This document shows positions 18,280 through 58,694 of a stretch of DNA of 64,000 nucleotides, one piece after another. Both the position numbers and the translations under genes were made by a program. The first letter of the stretch is position 1. Every line of letters starts with the position of its first letter. A model generated the notes under the pieces. The model had not been told where the DNA came from. It did no database searches and was given only the letters and a program-made list of their open reading frames with translations. Source of the stretch: an uncultured Poribacteria bacterium (GTDB lineage Bacteria > Poribacteria > WGA-4E > WGA-3G); NCBI GenBank assembly GCA_951828515.1, contig OX639992.1, positions 2,334,217 through 2,398,216 on the forward strand, written 5' to 3'.

Positions 18280-19293
18280 ATGACGAGACATACATTACGT
18301 GGGGATTATAGTGAAATTATCGGCGACAGTCCGCAGATATTTGAAGTCCTCCAACAAATTGAGCACTTCGCAGCGACATCGACGAGAGTCCTCATTTCTG
18401 GCGAAACGGGGACAGGTAAGGGGATGGTGGCGCGTGCGCTGCACAAAAACAGCAATAGATGGGGAGAAATGATTTCTGTCAACTGTGCGGGGATACAAGA
18501 GACTTTACTGGAGAGTGAGTTATTTGGATATGAGAAGGGCGCGTTCACTGGTGCTGATACACGGCATATCGGTAGGTTTGAAAGGGCAGACAACGGCACA
18601 CTCTTCTTGGATGAAATCGGAGAGATGCCGCTTTCCATGCAGTCGAAACTACTTCATGCGGTTGAAGAATCTGAGATTGAACGCGTCGGTGGCGAAAAGC
18701 CGATTCCGGTAGATGTCCGAATCGTAACGGCTACCAACAAAGACTTGGAACAAGCCGTTAAAGATGGGAGGTTTCGTGAAGACCTCTATTATCGCTTAAA
18801 TGTTACCGGTATTTCCGTGCCGACGCTGACGGCGCGAGGCGAAGACCTTGAAGCGTTGGTTCTGCACTTTCTTGGGAAGCATCTCCGACCCGAAGCATCA
18901 GAAATTCCACAGATAGCATTGAGTGTCCTGGTTCTTCTCAAAAGTTATCTGTGGCCCGGAAACGTGCGGGAATTGGAAAATGTGATTGAAACGGCGTCTC
19001 ACCTTGTCAAAGATCAAATGCTCTTACCGGAACACTTGCCGGAAAAGTTTCGTCCATATCATAATCACCCATTGCCGATCTCTGAAGGACCCGCTACACC
19101 GGAGAATGCCCAAAGCGTAACGGTTTCACTCGACATGACGCTTGAAGAGGTGGAAGAAACGTTCATCCGTAAAGTGTTAGCATCGCTTGAGGGGAATCGG
19201 AGCCAAGCTGCGAAAATGTTAGGGATTGGCAGAAGCACGCTGCAAAGGAAGTTGAAAAAATATAATATTTATTTCGGTGATGTTGACGCTTGA
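18280..19293 (+). CDS. Sigma54-dependent activator without receiver domain (PspF-like layout)
   Basis: The 337 residues hold an AAA+ domain followed by a Fis-type HTH. Walker A is GETGTGKG (41-48), the sigma54-contacting loop is GAFTGA (87-92), Walker B is FLDE (109-112), and the HTH is SQAAKMLGIGRSTLQRKLKK near the C-terminus. There is no N-terminal sensory domain, so activity must be controlled by a partner or by expression. AGGAGG lies upstream of the ATG. A perfect -24/-12 promoter sits 365 bp downstream, so it most likely drives the neighbouring operon. A remnant of its last codons recurs at 28.05 kb. Confidence 0.93.
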   Translation: MTRHTLRGDYSEIIGDSPQIFEVLQQIEHFAATSTRVLISGETGTGKGMVARALHKNSNRWGEMISVNCAGIQETLLESELFGYEKGAFTGADTRHIGRFERADNGTLFLDEIGEMPLSMQSKLLHAVEESEIERVGGEKPIPVDVRIVTATNKDLEQAVKDGRFREDLYYRLNVTGISVPTLTARGEDLEALVLHFLGKHLRPEASEIPQIALSVLVLLKSYLWPGNVRELENVIETASHLVKDQMLLPEHLPEKFRPYHNHPLPISEGPATPENAQSVTVSLDMTLEEVEETFIRKVLASLEGNRSQAAKMLGIGRSTLQRKLKKYNIYFGDVDA

Positions 19294-19657: not shown

Positions 19658-19673
19658 TGGCACGAAACTTGCT
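19658..19673 (+). promoter_or_regulatory. Perfect sigma54 (-24/-12) promoter
   Basis: TGGCAC-GAAAC-TTGCT matches the consensus TGGCAC-N5-TTGCW at every defined position. Counting 12 nt from the C of the -12 element puts +1 near 19684, one base before a 12-bp RNA stem. The activator gene is immediately upstream. Confidence 0.9.
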
Positions 19674-19683
19674 ACCTAATAGA

Positions 19684-19810
19684 TAGAATGTGAGTTTCGA
19701 CGCAAACGCGTCGGTTTTCATACCGAACTCACATTCTTGTAATGGCAGTTTCTCTATTTTGAGGTGCGCCGAGGGTGGTATCAGCACCCATTGACGCGGC
19801 ACTGCCATAA
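19684..19810 (+). ncRNA. Predicted two-domain structured RNA or leader from the sigma54 promoter
   Basis: Stem P1: AGAATGTGAGTT (19685-19696) pairs perfectly with 19726-19737 and encloses CGACGC-AAAC-GCGTCG (19698-19713). Stem P2: ATGGCAGT (19742-19749) pairs with ACTGCCAT (19801-19808), with inner GCCG/CGGC (19768-19771 with 19797-19800) and GGGTG/CACCC (19773-19777 with 19785-19789). No ORF fits this segment. It begins at the predicted +1. It could be an independent small RNA or the 5' leader of the operon at 21.3 kb, now separated from it by the IS. The class is unknown to me. Confidence 0.65.
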
Positions 19811-19904
19811 CAGGCCTATGACAGCACTAACCTAATTATAGCATACAATGGATGCATTTTGTGCACCTTTTAGGTTAGCACCCAGAGCGATTCAGTTTTA
19901 AGAG

Positions 19905-21083
19905 TTATCCATGAATAAGGTTAACTGCGAGTTTAGGTGTGTCAGCGAACTCTCGTAGTGTTTGCGAGATTTTTGTGCATCCTGCGAATCGTAGGACGGA
20001 AATGGCGGTGTTTCGCAACGCCGCCATGACGTGTGGAATGCTGCCGGTTCGTGCCTGTGAAGCGTCTTCATCGAAGATGACATCTCGGACCCAATGAAGT
20101 TTGTTTTCTATCGTCCAATGCTCTCGCCGAAGTTTGAGTAAGTCTTCAGCCGAAGCCTTCTCGGGAGGCAGACTTGTGATGCCAAACTGCGTCTGGTGTG
20201 TAATTTCTGCCGTCTGGATGTGCCGTCGCTCGATGTGGTATTCGTAGACCTGTGCGAGTCCTGGCCAATCGGCATCGGGGGTCAACAAGGTGCTACTTCT
20301 CAGGGTTCGCGTGGTGATAAACCCATGTGCGGTTTCAACGTCGATGTGCTTGTCAAGATGTGCCTCTGCCTGGATGTGGAGGTTTTCAAACCGCCGGGCA
20401 TCTACTTCCGGGGGGTCTGTCTCCGAGAGAGGTTCAAAGAGGTCTCGGATATCCTCAAACAAGTGCTTCTGATTCGCTTTGACGGGGAGGGCGTAATCGG
20501 CATTCGCGGCGAGAATATCCTTACAAAACGCCCGCTGCGTCAGAAGGGCATCGGTTGTGATGACTGTCCCGGCGACATCAAAGTGTTTCAGGAGTTGGGA
20601 GGCAACCGGGATTTCATTGGTTTTTTCACCGACAGCACATTCTGCCAGGGGGATGCCTAACTCGTGAGATACCGCAGCAAGTAGATGGAGCCTGCGGGAC
20701 TCTTCGGAGTCGGTACCACGCAAACTTTTTCCATCTATCGCAACGCCCGTCAGACGCGTCTCGAAAAACGGGTATCTTTGACGCTTCGTCATCACCCACT
20801 TCGTCAAGACCTGTTCTAACTTGACGACATCAAGGGCCTTCAAGAGATTATGAAACGTGCTACCGCAAGGCTTTTCTCTACGTCTGAACCCTAAAGCTTC
20901 TGCCACTGCTGGCTGTCTTCGGAGCCACGTCGCTATACAGGTATAACCTTTATGACCACACAGCAGCCCGACGACCAACACACCGAGCATTGCCTTCAAA
21001 GGATACCGGAGACCTTTTTTCTTGCGAGGTTCTGGGACTTCTGCTAACATATCAAGTAAGTGGCAAGAGTGGTTTCTTGTCAT
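19905..21083 (-). CDS. ISAs1-family transposase
   Basis: A 392-residue DDE transposase. It opens with LLDMLAEVPEPRKKKGLRYP and has GVAIDGKSLRGT (first catalytic Asp), VITTDALLTQRAFCKDIL (second Asp region) and REHWTIENKLHWVRDVIFDED (catalytic Glu), all typical of the ISAs1/H-repeat family. Full length, no frameshift. Its Shine-Dalgarno AGGTGAA-type site is complementary to TTCACCT just upstream on the same transcript (see the leader entry). Confidence 0.95.
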   Translation of the reverse strand: MTRNHSCHLLDMLAEVPEPRKKKGLRYPLKAMLGVLVVGLLCGHKGYTCIATWLRRQPAVAEALGFRRREKPCGSTFHNLLKALDVVKLEQVLTKWVMTKRQRYPFFETRLTGVAIDGKSLRGTDSEESRRLHLLAAVSHELGIPLAECAVGEKTNEIPVASQLLKHFDVAGTVITTDALLTQRAFCKDILAANADYALPVKANQKHLFEDIRDLFEPLSETDPPEVDARRFENLHIQAEAHLDKHIDVETAHGFITTRTLRSSTLLTPDADWPGLAQVYEYHIERRHIQTAEITHQTQFGITSLPPEKASAEDLLKLRREHWTIENKLHWVRDVIFDEDASQARTGSIPHVMAALRNTAISVLRFAGCTKISQTLREFADTPKLAVNLIHG

Positions 21084-21085
21084 GA

Positions 21086-21158
21086 TTCACCTCAAAAATA
21101 GGTTGGTTTTAAGGTGAAGTATAGCAGAAGTCGCGTGAAACGTCACGCGACTTCTGCT
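21086..21158 (-). promoter_or_regulatory. Transposase leader: 16-bp hairpin and RBS-masking pair
   Basis: AGCAGAAGTCGCGTGA (21123-21138) pairs perfectly with 21143-21158 around AACG. Inside it on the minus-strand transcript, TTCACCT (complement of 21112-21118) can pair with AGGTGAA (complement of 21086-21092), which covers the ribosome-binding site. This fits the known IS strategy of blocking transposase translation on read-through RNA; the function here is inferred. Confidence 0.65.
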
Positions 21159-21345
21159 TTTCTGAAGATATTAACATCTGTGAAAAAATACAGCAAAAAA
21201 ACGAAAACTGAATCCCTCTGGGTTAGCACCTTATACAGAATACAGAGGATTGCCAAGGACGCAAAATATCTTATCTTTTACTGTCCCTACGCAATCCTAC
21301 ATCATTGCCCCAGCAACCGGGGACTTACAAAAAGGAAAATTACCT

Positions 21346-21579
21346 ATGAGAACTCTTTTGATGAAAAGCCTTCCAGCACTTGCACTCCTGTTGGTTCTGA
21401 CGTTCGGCTTCACGATGATAGCTATGGGTAGCACCTGTTCATATTTATATGCGGTCGCCGTGGAAGCAACCGAATATGCGCAGAGGGCGTGTGATACATA
21501 TGGCAGCGGTTCCAATGAATGCAATTGGGCGCAATCTGACGCGGGTGCTTGTTGGAATGCCTACTACGAACAATGTTGA
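21346..21579 (+). CDS. Small secreted Cys-rich peptide
   Basis: A 77-residue product. I chose the ATG at 21346 because AAAGGA lies 11 nt upstream. MKSLPALALLLVLTFGFTM is a clear signal peptide with likely cleavage after AMG. The mature 49 residues carry five Cys (TCS, RACD, NECN, GACW, EQC), rich in Tyr, Ala and Asn. I do not recognise the family. It heads an operon that also encodes an STT3-like transferase, so it could be a surface subunit or modified peptide; this is inference. A strong hairpin follows the stop. Confidence 0.7.
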   Translation: MRTLLMKSLPALALLLVLTFGFTMIAMGSTCSYLYAVAVEATEYAQRACDTYGSGSNECNWAQSDAGACWNAYYEQC

Positions 21580-21604: not shown

Positions 21605-21630
21605 TTGTTGTGCCCACATGGGCACAACAA
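21605..21630 (+). terminator. Strong hairpin after the Cys-rich peptide gene
   Basis: TTGTTGTGCCC-ACAT-GGGCACAACAA, an 11-bp perfect stem 25 bp after the stop. There is no immediate T-run, so it may act as partial terminator or RNA stabiliser, making the peptide more abundant than the downstream genes. Confidence 0.5.
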
Positions 21631-21654
21631 AGCCAATCAAGGACTTTTTCTCAC

Positions 21655-22695
21655 ATGCGAATAAAACCAATTTATGCCATCAGTAGTCTCGCGCTTGTCC
21701 TTGTACTTTGTGGCATCACATGGAAAGCGTTTCGCCCTAAAAACGGGGAACCTGTCAAGATATACAAAGCCGTATCACCTGGCTCCCCTACCATTGATAC
21801 ATCACAAGCCCCGCAAAACGCGCAGACAGCACACCCCGAGGAAGAAGCACTGACCTCCGAAGAACGGGCTGAGCGAAGCAAGGATTTTACGCTCGAAGCG
21901 GTACGGATTCTCCGAGGAACAGAAACCGATCCTTTTATGGAAAAACTCCAAAAAGCAATGGAAACTCCGGAATACCAAGAATATGTCGGAAAGCAGCAAG
22001 AAACGTTTGGGGTAGATCTCTCACTCTGGTGGGATTTTTTGGAATCACAAGGACTCGGTTCTGGGAGAAGCCTGCAAGATAGAGACTTCACTGCACTTTT
22101 TCCAGGTGGAGGTGAATCCAATGATTATGAACCCTACATGCGAAAAAAGTTTGCGGAACTTGTGCTTGAGAATCCTTTCAAAGATACCGGGGCACTTCTC
22201 AGCGAGTTTTGGCAGGACGAAGCCAATTATATCTGGACCCGTCAACATTTCAACGGACATGTCGGCGACTACGACTGGGCTGAGAATATCCGGGAGAACG
22301 CTGGCAGCATCCTCGCAGAATTCACGGCTGTAGAGACAGAAACGGTACCCTCGACCCCAACCCCCGATGTTGCCGAAAAAACCAGAGACAGTCAACTACC
22401 AATCCGCCAGGAGACCGGGATACCTACAGAGGCTTCCGAGCAGAAACTGCGGCTATTCCTAGAACGAGAGACGGCTCTCACCCCAGACATCTTCACAGAC
22501 ATACCCAACTTGCCAAACAACGGAGGTTTTGAAAAAGCACTTCGCGGACAGTTTTCACCCGAGCGTTTCAACACGGCGGTGCAAACCTTGACGCAATACG
22601 GACCCGAAGAAGGACTCCGTAAACTCAAAGAATCGGATCCCGAGATCGCGTTCCATGTGGAACGGCTCATCCAAACCACTGCGGAGACAGACTAA
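21655..22695 (+). CDS. Membrane-anchored protein of unknown function
   Basis: The ATG at 21655 has AAGGA 11 nt upstream and gives 346 residues. YAISSLALVLVLCGITW near the N-terminus is a single membrane anchor or uncleaved signal. The rest is hydrophilic, with a Pro/Thr/Ala-rich linker (about 35-65) and helical segments such as LQKAMETPEYQEYVGKQQE and SDPEIAFHVERLIQTT. I do not recognise the family. The EYQEYV region has a weak likeness to SSEYKNFLAEAYP in the gene at 22978, so the two may be distant relatives. It stops 1 bp before the next start. Confidence 0.6.
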   Translation: MRIKPIYAISSLALVLVLCGITWKAFRPKNGEPVKIYKAVSPGSPTIDTSQAPQNAQTAHPEEEALTSEERAERSKDFTLEAVRILRGTETDPFMEKLQKAMETPEYQEYVGKQQETFGVDLSLWWDFLESQGLGSGRSLQDRDFTALFPGGGESNDYEPYMRKKFAELVLENPFKDTGALLSEFWQDEANYIWTRQHFNGHVGDYDWAENIRENAGSILAEFTAVETETVPSTPTPDVAEKTRDSQLPIRQETGIPTEASEQKLRLFLERETALTPDIFTDIPNLPNNGGFEKALRGQFSPERFNTAVQTLTQYGPEEGLRKLKESDPEIAFHVERLIQTTAETD

Positions 22696-22696
22696 C

Positions 22697-22981
22697 ATGA
22701 AAGATACACATGTATTAGCTGCAGCCTGCGGTCTTGCCCTCATTGCCATTGTTGGTGTGTTCATCGGGTATGTGACCCAGACACTCCCACAACACACACC
22801 GCGTTTGATAACAATCTCGGCACCTGCTACAGACACACCCGTAGGAAAAAAGAAGGACTGTCACTGTTGTGAATTAACTCGCGAAGAGATCCAAACGCGT
22901 CTAAAAAAAATCGTAAACGAGAAAAGGCATCTGAAAACACTTTCGCCCCTGAGCAGCAGTGAATCAGGAGGACTCCCATGA
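22697..22981 (+). CDS. Small membrane protein with a Cys cluster
   Basis: The product has 94 residues: one N-terminal membrane segment (VLAAACGLALIAIVGVFIGYV), a Pro/Thr linker, then KKKDCHCCELTREEIQTRLKK, a CxCC cluster leading into a predicted coiled coil. The cluster might bind metal or form disulfides. The stop overlaps the next start as ATGA, so translation is probably coupled. No family recognised. Confidence 0.6.
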   Translation: MKDTHVLAAACGLALIAIVGVFIGYVTQTLPQHTPRLITISAPATDTPVGKKKDCHCCELTREEIQTRLKKIVNEKRHLKTLSPLSSSESGGLP

Positions 22982-23820
22982 AAATACGTTTCTTCATTTT
23001 CATCCTTGTTTTTCTCACTAGTAGGGTCCTCGCGTTTGCTGCGGAACAAATGCACGACACGCGTGAACCCACACTCCTAGAGGAAGAAACCTTCGCGCGC
23101 TTAAAAAACAAGTTCCCTGGCGAGATTCTCGATGAAACCCTAAAAGACCTACACGAACTCGCTGAGTCTTCTGAATACAAAAACTTTCTTGCAGAAGCCT
23201 ATCCGGATGCTTCTCTGCCTCCGGAATTTGCCGAGATTGTAAACGCCGAAGGTCCCCTTGTGGACGATACGCTCTACAGAATACGCCCCCCCAAAAAACG
23301 CTATCTCACCTACTATACGGAACACTTCGGGGTCCAAACGCCCGAAGCGGTCAGGGATGCTGAGCATTTCATCGTTCACCACGAGGTGATGGGAATGTGG
23401 ATACACTACGCGATAAAACATGGTGGTGATATACCCGCATATCTACGCACCCAGGGGCCCCGCCTCAGCGGCAGGGCAAAAGCGAAACTCGTGCGAACCC
23501 CGCAATTCAAAGAAATGATGAAACACCGTTTTGATATTGAAATACTCGGGCGGCCGGATGCCCAAACGAGCGTACAGATGATGCCTGTCTACCAACTTCC
23601 ACTTCTGGTCCTAACACGCGCCTGCATCGCAGCAGACATCCACTGGATACAAGCCGTATTTGAAAAACACGGTACATCTGACGGCATTCTCTGGATTGCT
23701 CTTCAATATCCAGCATTATTGAGCCGGATCAGGTATGCGTTTCTCACAGCCAAAACGTTCCTTCACTTTGTTCACACACGTCCCGATGCCGCTGAAGCCA
23801 CTAAACGCACGGGCCCCTGA
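22978..23820 (+). CDS. Secreted protein of unknown function
   Basis: The 280-residue protein begins with a signal peptide (IRFFIFILVFLTSRVLAFA) likely cut after AFA. The mature part is helical and acidic at first (ARLKNKFPGEILDETLKDL), then Tyr/His-rich (KRYLTYYTEHFGVQTPEAV, HFIVHHEVMGMWIHYAIKH). The His-rich stretch could bind metal, but there is no HExxH. ATGA overlap with the previous gene indicates one operon. No family recognised. Confidence 0.6.
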   Translation: MKIRFFIFILVFLTSRVLAFAAEQMHDTREPTLLEEETFARLKNKFPGEILDETLKDLHELAESSEYKNFLAEAYPDASLPPEFAEIVNAEGPLVDDTLYRIRPPKKRYLTYYTEHFGVQTPEAVRDAEHFIVHHEVMGMWIHYAIKHGGDIPAYLRTQGPRLSGRAKAKLVRTPQFKEMMKHRFDIEILGRPDAQTSVQMMPVYQLPLLVLTRACIAADIHWIQAVFEKHGTSDGILWIALQYPALLSRIRYAFLTAKTFLHFVHTRPDAAEATKRTGP

Positions 23821-23868: not shown

Positions 23869-26250
23869 ATGGAAATTCGAACGCTTGGCACTGTTATTCT
23901 CCTTCTCCTTCTTCTGTTTACGGCGTTTCTCATCCGCATACAGGGCTTGAACAATATTCCAGAAGGACAGTTTACGGGGAGAGATGCCTATCTTTACTAC
24001 TGGCAGGCACAACTCATTTCTGAACACGGACACTTACCCGAAAGGGATATGCATCGCTGGCTTCCGTTGGGTAGAGATTTAGGGCAAACGCTAAATCTCT
24101 ATTCTTATGCCCTTGCTTATGCACACAAAGCCGTTGCTTTACTTTTTCCAAAAGTCTCGCTTTATCACGTCGCCCTCTACGCCCCTGTTGTCTGCTTTTG
24201 CATCGGACTCGGGGCACTCTGCCTTTTTCTTTCTCACTCCTATGGTCTTCTCTTTTCTGGCATTACGGGTGTCTTTTTGGCGACACTGCCCGGTGCGATA
24301 GAACGCAGCACCGCAGGATTCAGCGACAGAGATAGTTGGTGTCTGATGCTTGGTATTCTCGCCATTGTTACCTATCTCGCGTCTTTACAAGCACGCCACC
24401 ACCGCCCCCGTCTTTTATGGACTCTCGGCAGTGGTATTTCCGTTTTCCTTGGTGGGATCTCTTGGGAAGGTTTTGGTGTGTTTTTAAGTATCATTCTCGT
24501 TGTAGAAGTTTGGCGTTTTCTGACCACCGAAACAGAGGAATGCTTCCATCTTTATCTGCTGTGGGTGTGCTGCTTTGTGCCGACACTTTATCTTGCCTCC
24601 CCTGCCTATCGGAGCGGATACGGTTTTGCGGAACACCTTACTGCGTTTCTGCTAGTGCCCCCGGTTGTGATTCTGATACTTCGTGCCTCCCGGAACTTCT
24701 TTCTTACAAAGACGCGCTGGGCTGACAGACTTAAAACACACGCGCGGACCTTATCCCTTGGATTAACGCTCGCAAGCATTACGTTAGCGATAGGTTATGC
24801 CTTGACACAAATGGATACCTTCGCTGGCACCACCGTCCCCCTGAACCAAAACAGACTGATGCAAAACATAGGTGAACTCAAGAATCCTTTACTGGAACAT
24901 TGGATGGTACGCTACGGCAGCGTTTTTGTACTGGGATGTCTCGGCCTGGTTATGGCTGTCATTCGTTTTTGGAAAAGAGAGGGGTTGTTGTTCACTGGTG
25001 CCTTCATTCTATTCACACTCACGACCTTTTATCGCAGTCGCATGGATGGACTTTTGGGAACTGCTACAGGTACTCTCCTTTTTGCTATCGCGATTGCCGC
25101 GTGTGGCGTGGGACTTATTGCACTTGCAGGGCGCAGACACGTTGCATCCGAAAATGAACCTGTCTATATAGCGTTCATCATCTGGTTGATTTTCTGGGTC
25201 GCGCTGTCGCGCGATGCCAGACGCTACGATTTCTTTATCGGAACCGCCCTCGCCTTTTTTACCGCAGATATCATCGGCTTTTTGTCCGATTTCTATGGAA
25301 ACAAAATTAAAGAAAAACTACTCCAATACCTTTTAAAGACAGCCATCCTCGGAATAACACTCACGCTCATTCTGTTTTGGTCACCAGCCGGCGGGCACGC
25401 AAAACTCACCCTATCTGCCGCCACACAAATGCGTCGGGCAATCCCTGGCAGAAGCAAACTCGCAAAGCCCCTCTCTTGGATGAAAGACAATCTGCCACCT
25501 ACTGCCGTCGTCGCCGGGACATGGAACTACGGCAGCCTCCTGAATGTCCTTGGGGGTGTTAAAACCGTTATTGACCAAGATCACTACATACAACACTGGA
25601 TACATCTCTATAACCGCCATGTTCATTGTGCCACCACTACGAGAGAGGCTTTGGAATTCCTAAAGACACACGAAGTAACACACCTTATGTTAGACGCACA
25701 AGATGCGATTTTCAACGCCGCCTACTATTCCAATCTCGGCAGCGATGAAAACGGAGACCTCCGTTTTACTATCACACCGCTTCAAGAACAAACACCAAAA
25801 GATATGAAATACCGCGCAGCACCTGGCAATCGCGCCAATATTCTTGTGGAATTTATTGACTTTGACTTCGTTTCCGAAACTCTACTGACTGTCAGAGCGA
25901 CACTCAAAACAGGCGACACGGTGAATCTCCCCGCTGTTGCTCTTATCAACAAAGGGTACGTCACCGCAAAAAATAAAAATGAACACGGAGGCGTTTTGAT
26001 TGTTTTTAATGAAGAACAACAGCCCGCTGCCTCCTACTATATTCCTACCATCGGTTGGGAGAGTCTCGCTATTCGTTTGTACTTTCGTGGAGATATACCC
26101 GACCTTTTTGTTCCTGTTTACCCGATAGACAGAGATGCCTCCGCCGATGTCAAAATCTGGGAGATTCACTATCCGCCTGACATTCAAACCAATCCTAAAT
26201 ACCTCAGAACAGGCATCCCTGAAATAGATGCACAGTTACAACTTCAATAA
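23869..26250 (+). CDS. STT3/AglB-like oligosaccharyltransferase
   Basis: A 793-residue multi-pass membrane protein. STT3/AglB/PglB enzymes move a lipid-linked glycan to Asn of an exported protein. Supporting features in order: an N-terminal helix, a first-loop acidic site FTGRDAYLYYWQ (Asp39), AGFSDRDSWCLML as the second acidic site, GGISWEGFGVF, about a dozen hydrophobic helices to residue 510, then a soluble domain starting VVAGTWNYGSLLNVLGG, where WNYG stands in the place of the WWDYG signature. The variant signature means glycan or acceptor use may differ. It lies between exported proteins and a CDP-alcohol phosphatidyltransferase. Confidence 0.82.
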   Translation: MEIRTLGTVILLLLLLFTAFLIRIQGLNNIPEGQFTGRDAYLYYWQAQLISEHGHLPERDMHRWLPLGRDLGQTLNLYSYALAYAHKAVALLFPKVSLYHVALYAPVVCFCIGLGALCLFLSHSYGLLFSGITGVFLATLPGAIERSTAGFSDRDSWCLMLGILAIVTYLASLQARHHRPRLLWTLGSGISVFLGGISWEGFGVFLSIILVVEVWRFLTTETEECFHLYLLWVCCFVPTLYLASPAYRSGYGFAEHLTAFLLVPPVVILILRASRNFFLTKTRWADRLKTHARTLSLGLTLASITLAIGYALTQMDTFAGTTVPLNQNRLMQNIGELKNPLLEHWMVRYGSVFVLGCLGLVMAVIRFWKREGLLFTGAFILFTLTTFYRSRMDGLLGTATGTLLFAIAIAACGVGLIALAGRRHVASENEPVYIAFIIWLIFWVALSRDARRYDFFIGTALAFFTADIIGFLSDFYGNKIKEKLLQYLLKTAILGITLTLILFWSPAGGHAKLTLSAATQMRRAIPGRSKLAKPLSWMKDNLPPTAVVAGTWNYGSLLNVLGGVKTVIDQDHYIQHWIHLYNRHVHCATTTREALEFLKTHEVTHLMLDAQDAIFNAAYYSNLGSDENGDLRFTITPLQEQTPKDMKYRAAPGNRANILVEFIDFDFVSETLLTVRATLKTGDTVNLPAVALINKGYVTAKNKNEHGGVLIVFNEEQQPAASYYIPTIGWESLAIRLYFRGDIPDLFVPVYPIDRDASADVKIWEIHYPPDIQTNPKYLRTGIPEIDAQLQLQ

Positions 26251-57257: not shown

Positions 57258-58694
57258 ATGAATCTCCCGGCACCTGTTACCAACGATAATTCGCGACGCA
57301 TTATCGGCGAATCCGCACCGATGCAGACGGTTTTGCGCCAAGTCGCGCAGGTCGCACCGACGAAAGCGACTGTTCTCATCACAGGCGAAACGGGTGTTGG
57401 CAAAGATGTCATCGCGCAGGCGATCCACGAAAGGGGTCCCCGTAAAAACCGACCCTTCAAAGCGGTCAACTGCGGCGCGTTTTATCAAGACCTCCTTCAA
57501 AGTGAACTTTTCGGTCACGAGAAGGGAGCTTTTACCGGAGCATCGAGCCAACGGCGGGGTGTGTTTGAACAAGCCAACGGCGGCACACTCTTCTTGGATG
57601 AGGTAGGCGAAATGTCGCCTGAAGTGCAGGTGAAATTCCTGCGTGTCCTCGAAGCACAGGAATTCACAAGGCTCGGTGGCGAGAAAAATATTAAAGTCGA
57701 TGTCCGAATTATCGCCGCCACAAATATTGACCTTGCGACATCAGTAAGACAAAAGAAATTTAGGCAAGACCTCTACTACCGACTGAATCTCTTCCGTATC
57801 CAGATTCCACCACTGCGCGATCGGCGTGAGGATATCCCGCTTTTCGTCTCTGCGTTCATCTCCGAATTAAGCGCAGAACACGGTAAACCGATTACCGGCA
57901 TAACCCAAGAGGCACTCAATTATCTCCAAAATGCTGATTGGCGCGGCAACGTTCGCGAACTGAGGAATGCCATAGAAACCGCTGTTATTCTCTCCACCAC
58001 TGAAGAGCTGCAACTCAAGGATTTTCCGTTGGATTCGGAATCCGAGCCGGGTGCTTTACTTCCTGTGCAAGCCTCCGGGACGCAACTCGTACCTACACAG
58101 GTGATTAACACTGCCGATGCGGAAGCTGAACTTCTTAATGTACCGGGGAGTTCCTTACAGGTTGTTGATACCACTGGTAGTGCAATCGCAACAGAAAATT
58201 TAGCGATTTACAAGACGATCCTTGGGCTTATCCTCTCTGCGATCCGTTTGCTGGAGCCGACCGCTGCCACGAGCGAGGAAATGCCGTTTCTAGTACCGGA
58301 TGAAGATACCAGTTGGATGCAAATTAGCGAAACAGACGATGCAGCGGATGTTCTCAAAAAAGCGTTGGAAGTGTTTTCAACGATAGCCAAAGTGCTTGAG
58401 AATCGGGCGCAAAACGGAGTTTTACCGATCGCCGCCCCTATAGAACAACAGGACGGTTCACAAGGACAGGGCGAGTATCTACCCGTGCTTGATGAGGAAC
58501 AAGTCATCGGCAGGGTCGGTATGACGATGGCAGAAATTGAGCAAGCCGCTATCCAAAAAACGCTCACAGAAGTAGGCGGCAATAAAACAGAGGCGGCGAA
58601 GATTCTTGACATCGGGGTCCGAACCCTGCACCGGAAGTTGGACGCTTACAGACAGGCAGTTGATACTGCAGATGATGATTTAAATCAGAAATAG
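57258..58694 (+). CDS. Sigma54-dependent transcriptional activator
   Basis: ATG 57258 has GAAGGA 9 nt upstream; ATG 57225 is an alternative with no ribosome site. About 478 residues: GETGVGKDVIAQAIHERG (Walker A), GAFTGASSQRRGVFEQ (sigma54 loop), GTLFLDEVGEM (Walker B), RLNLFRIQIPPLRDR, WRGNVRELRNAIETA, then a Fis-type HTH (NKTEAAKILDIGVRTLHRKL). A roughly 190-residue low-similarity segment separates AAA+ and HTH, where most relatives have few residues. No receiver domain. I did not find a matching -24/-12 site near it. Confidence 0.92.
   Translation: MNLPAPVTNDNSRRIIGESAPMQTVLRQVAQVAPTKATVLITGETGVGKDVIAQAIHERGPRKNRPFKAVNCGAFYQDLLQSELFGHEKGAFTGASSQRRGVFEQANGGTLFLDEVGEMSPEVQVKFLRVLEAQEFTRLGGEKNIKVDVRIIAATNIDLATSVRQKKFRQDLYYRLNLFRIQIPPLRDRREDIPLFVSAFISELSAEHGKPITGITQEALNYLQNADWRGNVRELRNAIETAVILSTTEELQLKDFPLDSESEPGALLPVQASGTQLVPTQVINTADAEAELLNVPGSSLQVVDTTGSAIATENLAIYKTILGLILSAIRLLEPTAATSEEMPFLVPDEDTSWMQISETDDAADVLKKALEVFSTIAKVLENRAQNGVLPIAAPIEQQDGSQGQGEYLPVLDEEQVIGRVGMTMAEIEQAAIQKTLTEVGGNKTEAAKILDIGVRTLHRKLDAYRQAVDTADDDLNQK

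Follow-up and report, generated by a model that had tools for sequence, protein, structure and literature searches.

The window, a stretch of 64,000 nucleotides from an uncultured Poribacteria bacterium, contains on its forward strand the gene of a sigma-54 activator (18280..19293). This activator is of the one-domain type, i. e. it consists of an AAA+ domain and a Fis-type HTH without a receiver domain (Pfam Sigma54_activat, 1.4e-69; HTH_8, 2.7e-15), and it is 83% identical to a protein from a Poribacteria assembly. Downstream of it, on the same strand, lies a consensus -24/-12 promoter of the sigma-54 type, TGGCACG-N4-TTGCT (19658-19673; TGGCACG at 19658-19664, TTGCT at 19669-19673). With the start taken 12 nt downstream of the -12 C (19672), the +1 predicted from sequence only falls at 19684, the position that an earlier note on this DNA had also proposed. 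Transcription of the leader that starts here would be under the control of the adjacent activator. Another region that resembles a sigma-54 activator lies at 57300-58028 and shares 46% identity with the one at 18280.

From 5' to 3' the leader is ordered as promoter, P1, P2 domain (outer P2, P2a, P2b), P3, GAGGAUUGCC, usually P4, Shine-Dalgarno sequence and gene; all its parts are on the forward strand. P1 (19685..19737) is a 5'-terminal stem with inner hairpins, in which AGAATGTGAGTT (19685-19696) pairs with AACTCACATTCT (19726-19737) over all 12 bp. In the P2 domain (19742..19808) an outer helix (19742-19748/19802-19808) encloses the hairpins P2a (19749-19752/19761-19764) and P2b (19766-19777/19785-19797). 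The earlier description of a 12-bp P1 beginning at 19685, followed by a P2 with three paired segments, is thus correct in its coordinates. It fell short in extent: P3 and P4 lie beyond it, and the outer P2 shares its 3' strand with a further helix, B (19802..19824; CUGCCAUA at 19802-19809 with UAUGACAG at 19817-19824), which excludes the outer P2. The segment 19684-19815 (132 nt) folds with -56.2 kcal/mol compared to -34.2 +/- 3.5 kcal/mol for dinucleotide shuffles (z -6.3; 0/200 as stable). P3 is a long hairpin (19824..19882), the last 10 nt of which (19873-19882) form the left copy of a target duplication.

Directly past P3, at its 3' edge, the leader is interrupted by an insertion sequence of the ISAs1 family (19883..21220). 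Its transposase is encoded on the reverse strand (19905-21083; transpos_ISAs1, 208.8 bits, cut-off 70), its terminal inverted repeats comprise 20 nt (95%), and the 10-bp target duplication GGTTAGCACC is present at 19873-19882 and 21221-21230. The genome has matches to the ends of this element at about seven further sites. Past the element the leader resumes (CTTATACAGAATACAGAGGATTGCC..., P4) and continues up to a 77-aa gene. Here GAGGAUUGCC (21245..21254), the 3' strand of helix C, is complementary to 19744-19754, the 5' strand of P2/P2a, and doubles as the 5' strand of P4 (AGGATTGCC...GCAATCCT, 21246..21298), an inverted repeat for which a permutation test over 62 relatives gave 0/300. As the element sits inside the leader, the true downstream gene is the one at 21346-21579. 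The statement that there is no ORF remains valid for the structured element, which holds no plausible gene; no ORF was seen because the insertion had moved the gene away. Helix B, P3, the insertion and the remaining leader and gene beyond it had all been missed.

The leader is not restricted to this locus. Three further copies were found by blastn in the same 5.85-Mb genome (four in total), and 30 of 60 relatives, all within the genus, have copies as well. A covariance model of the P2-P3 element (R1), built from 48 copies, had matches at E <= 0.001 in 51 of the phylum's 85 genomes. The genus accounts for 37 of these (out of its 38 genomes), and the remaining 14 come from elsewhere in the same Poribacteria family. 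None of the 26 Poribacteria-phylum genomes outside the family carried the P2-P3 element in this search. Summed over genomes there are about 230 R1 matches, a few of which are antisense hits on the palindromic P3. No Rfam 15 family was hit at the gathering cut-off: the window yielded tRNA only and nine other leader loci yielded nothing, while in the permissive scan narK (E 0.84) and sot0042 (E 3.1) came up with scores that fall far short of the cut-off. In the literature searched we found no structured or regulatory RNA of Poribacteria. It is very likely that the copies represent an undescribed conserved leader RNA family, restricted to a single family of Poribacteria that live as sponge symbionts.

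Two types of P3 exist, type I with GCUAACCUAA...UUAGGUUAGC and type II with CUGGUUUCUA...AAACCAG; P3 is rewritten between the types with its pairing kept. In type II (L136, L174, L139) several leaders precede a conserved methyltransferase-like ORF (MNTPFAPNTLYYGDCLD...), and CTGTCA, ahead of a T run past P4, is a possible pairing partner of TGACAG, a strand of B.

The promoters differ between copies, too. Besides the window, seven loci (L047, L048, L070, L015, L066, L081, L082) combine TGGCAC-N5-TTGC, a predicted sigma-54-dependent promoter, with a stem that begins between +1 and +5 and with the same one-domain enhancer-binding activator, which lies directly upstream in the same orientation and shows 64 to 95% identity. 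The promoter also occurs at L085-L087, together with another long stem, which begins near +6; the activator upstream of L086 and L087 is 50% identical to that of the window. These three sigma-54-type leader loci are nearly identical and lie on one contig (G017:C2). L047, L048, L070 and the window, which belong to close relatives, have the activator (77-95% identical), the promoter and P1 in common, and yet the first downstream gene differs each time, as if swapped. L070 (G030:C147) retains promoter and P1 and lacks P2-P3, so that P1 runs straight into P4-like sequence. Many other copies have sigma-70-type promoters in place of sigma-54. Inverted repeats flank the -10 of several of these, and in type I copies such as L054, L059 and L050 operator-like inverted repeats (GACAATAACA/TGTTATTGTC, CTATTTTCGTC/GACGAAATAG) span the promoter.

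The earlier note had regarded a 5' end folded into a stem as a sign of stable small RNAs or leaders. Indeed, a stem at or near +1 recurs at other loci with unrelated sequences: GTGAGTT/AACTCAC in the sigma-54 type, CTTACGCAC/GTGCGTAAG in the G017 type, and TGACGT/ACGTCA in type II, where it begins about where the sigma-70-type promoter would start transcription.

Covariation, which the earlier note had suggested examining for P1 and P2, was analyzed in an alignment of 92 distinct copies (A4). For P2b and P3 together 93.4% of the cells are paired, and 179 changed on both sides as compared to 54.6 +/- 4.8 in shuffles. This is strong evidence for P2b and also for P3. For P1 there is little: the eight copies are similar and contain one clear exchange of T-A to C-G. 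The outer P2 (GGCAG:CUGCC) taken alone is weak by counted pairs, with 3 compensatory cells versus 1.2 in shuffles (47/500). For helix B (CUGCCAUA:UAUGACAG), 11 compensatory cells were counted versus 0.6 in shuffles (0/500), and the strongest single covarying pair of all falls in this helix. By these counts the outer P2 is not the best-supported helix for its own 3' strand, since B uses the same strand.

The 5' strand of P2 has a second partner as well. Its GGCAGyCUC is complementary to GAGGAUUGCC past P3, and the resulting C duplexes have a mean energy of -12.5 kcal/mol versus -8.0 kcal/mol in shuffles, with 28 of 92 at p <= 0.01. Swapping partners among copies weakened C (0/200), within each type as well, and L143, L145 and L119 carry rewritten C helices. 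In duplex permutations with 47 thinned copies, the number of permutations out of 1000 that were as good as observed was 0 for P3, P2a and B, 1 for C and 4 for P2; with 27 thinned copies it was again 0 for P3, P2a and B, 6 for C and 1 for P2. These permutation tests ignore the tree; the negative controls, which share the same tree, gave 921, 817 and 77 of 1000 with 47 copies and 67 to 921 across both thinnings. P2 competes with B for one of its strands and with C for the other; all three helices covary, and C has a further competitor in P4.

The mismatches are informative about the strand. G-U exceeds A-C in P3 (63:10) and in P2 (25:4), as expected for an RNA of this strand. In helix B the ratio is reversed (G-U 2, A-C 21) because one C-A mismatch is kept, a point against the switch reading; across the 92 copies the mismatch sits at one or the other of two adjacent positions (GAC or AGC variants). 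Possibly, this mismatch tunes helix B to be weak.

The energies of the alternatives are close. Forcing B in the core yields structures that are in the median 2.4 kcal/mol above those with P2, and in whole leaders C costs a median of 2.5 kcal/mol over P2 (IQR -0.4 to 6.0; 61 leaders). The existence of two near-equal folds is well supported by these calculations and by the covariation. In 17 copies with the gene start at most 45 nt from P3, the predicted openness of the Shine-Dalgarno sequence was 0.17 in the C fold versus 0.35; in the 44 other copies there was little difference (0.37 vs 0.31). In the majority, which have P4, the Shine-Dalgarno sequence of the gene comes after P4 and is nearly as open in one fold as in the other, so that these copies give no evident sign of translational control. 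An effect of the folds on translation is hence plausible, and in the models it is clear only for the minority of copies with a near start.

Because mutually exclusive helices each covary, the element is likely a cis-acting RNA that switches its conformation, and it probably acts on translation. Fold 1 would consist of P2, P2a, P2b, P3 and P4, with GAGGAUUGCC free of the 5' strand of the leader. Fold 2 would consist of B, C, P2b and P3, with GAGGAUUGCC held by the 5' strand; in copies with the gene right past P3, the 5' strand would instead hold the GGAG Shine-Dalgarno sequence of the gene. A signal (a metabolite, a protein or folding kinetics) would shift the balance, and fold 2 would reduce translation of the downstream gene. 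Our preferred interpretation, towards which we lean with some reserve, is therefore that of a structured 5' leader of an operon headed by a small secreted protein, with a switch between two folds that responds to some signal. In the window itself the switch cannot work normally, as the insertion between P3 and P4 puts the strands of C about 1.5 kb apart.

Alternatively, P1 and the chain of hairpins might shield the mRNA from decay that depends on the 5' end, or guide its processing, without any switching. The recurrence of unrelated stems at or near the predicted +1 would fit this. Yet such a role does not need mutually exclusive covarying helices, and several type I copies with sigma-70-type promoters appear to start within or past the P1-like repeat. 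We thus consider a pure stability leader unlikely, though it is the strongest competitor of the switch.

The genes downstream bear on both the function of the leader and a further alternative. The leader's own first gene (21346..21579, + strand) encodes a small secreted Cys-containing protein of 77 aa, which has no Pfam or NCBIfam match and shares 41% identity (E 1e-16) with the protein linked to the leader at L133. It is followed on the same strand by genes for a membrane-anchored protein of 357 aa (21622..22695) with homologues in 29 of 38 genus genomes, a protein of 280 aa (22978..23820) with homologues in several leader operons, and an STT3-like oligosaccharyltransferase (23869..26250; TIGR04154 match below the cut-off). 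Across the family, 52 of the 55 copies with a recognisable first gene encode an N-terminal hydrophobic segment in its protein (median length 122 aa); the background was 3 of 9 larger ORFs of the window, a small sample. Few of 47 leader-linked first proteins match Pfam. Judged by these predictions, the leaders usually precede small secreted or membrane proteins. Among the 55 type I leaders having at least 4 kb of downstream sequence, 13 are followed by an STT3-like homologue, which suggests operons that glycosylate their secreted products. Besides the window, STT3-like genes recur at L049, L051, L052, L054, L062, L065, L071, L072, L075, L084, L091, L103 and L133.

That the leaders head operons with such long genes, under differing types of promoter, could also be taken as a hint at processive antitermination or a protein-binding leader, similar to EAR or put, that enables read-through of a long operon. 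However, no terminator that would need read-through was found near the window leader, and no partner protein was identified, so that we regard this explanation as quite improbable. In the window leader, counts of terminator-like sites past P2 or P3 equalled those in shuffles. This leader does not look like an attenuator with an intrinsic terminator, as no stem with a U run was found past P2 or P3.

Slightly less probable still is a trans-acting small RNA that is made from the promoter and processed or terminated past P3 or P4. In its favour, the element contains no ORF, and in the window transcription would proceed from P3 into the insertion sequence; but an intrinsic terminator past P3 is missing, and the copies are followed by a same-strand gene with a Shine-Dalgarno sequence, which in the window lies beyond the insertion. 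Of the two options of the earlier note, a stable small RNA or a leader, it is hence the leader that is retained: the copies lie reproducibly between a promoter and a same-strand gene, and in the window this gene is merely displaced. A DNA repeat or operator, i. e. palindromes bound by a regulator or a mobile element, would agree with the multiple copies and with the inverted repeats around the -10 of several sigma-70-type promoters, but is very improbable given the G-U bias in P3 and P2, the constant orientation of the copies relative to promoter and gene, the compensatory changes that span long loops, and the lack of a match in the phage collection.

Several more specific ideas were discarded. 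A short upstream ORF over P2b (GTG GTA TCA ... CCA TAA) has neither a conserved start codon nor a conserved frame and suffers 1- and 4-nt length changes. Kissing of the P2b loop with the B loop was not borne out: by eye the loops are not consistently complementary, and no strong covariation links them. A phage origin found no match in the phage collection, and P3, inspected by eye, lacks the RYYYAAC/GTTRRRY ends of integron attC sites. In some copies an ATG past GAGGATTGCC could open a leader peptide within P4, but the reading frame and its stop differ between copies, and the covariation of P4 is that of a hairpin.

We return to the switch. Abundant as it is within the 51 genomes, the leader family marks operons of small secreted or membrane proteins that are mostly foreign to Pfam, is a clean case of competing helices each leaving a trace of covariation, and yields a testable prediction of how a sponge symbiont controls its surface output. 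In its general form, the proposal is that strand exchange between P2 and B plus C in a new class of leaders controls dozens of operons for secreted or surface proteins, whichever sigma factor starts transcription; to this we would give a little less than an even chance.

Sigma-54 control near genes of secreted proteins is reminiscent of the PEP-CTERM regulators of the PrsR type (TIGR02915). The window activator scores 301 bits against that model, below its cut-off of 502.6 bits, and unlike these regulators has no receiver domain. With the EAR and put antitermination RNAs the Poribacteria leader has in common that a structured leader heads long operons, but Rfam revealed no covariance-model relation. 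With translational riboswitches and other cis-regulatory leader switches it shares several features: a conserved folded domain in the 5' untranslated region, mutually exclusive helices and, in the models of those copies with the gene right past P3, sequestration of the Shine-Dalgarno sequence. In contrast to these, the Poribacteria leader has no Rfam match or known ligand, is spread over many unrelated genes, and in most copies has the additional P4 between switch and gene. Finally, the stem predicted at or beside the transcription start resembles the 5'-terminal stem-loop stabilisers of the ompA type, to which the Poribacteria leader adds three to four conserved, partly competing helices.
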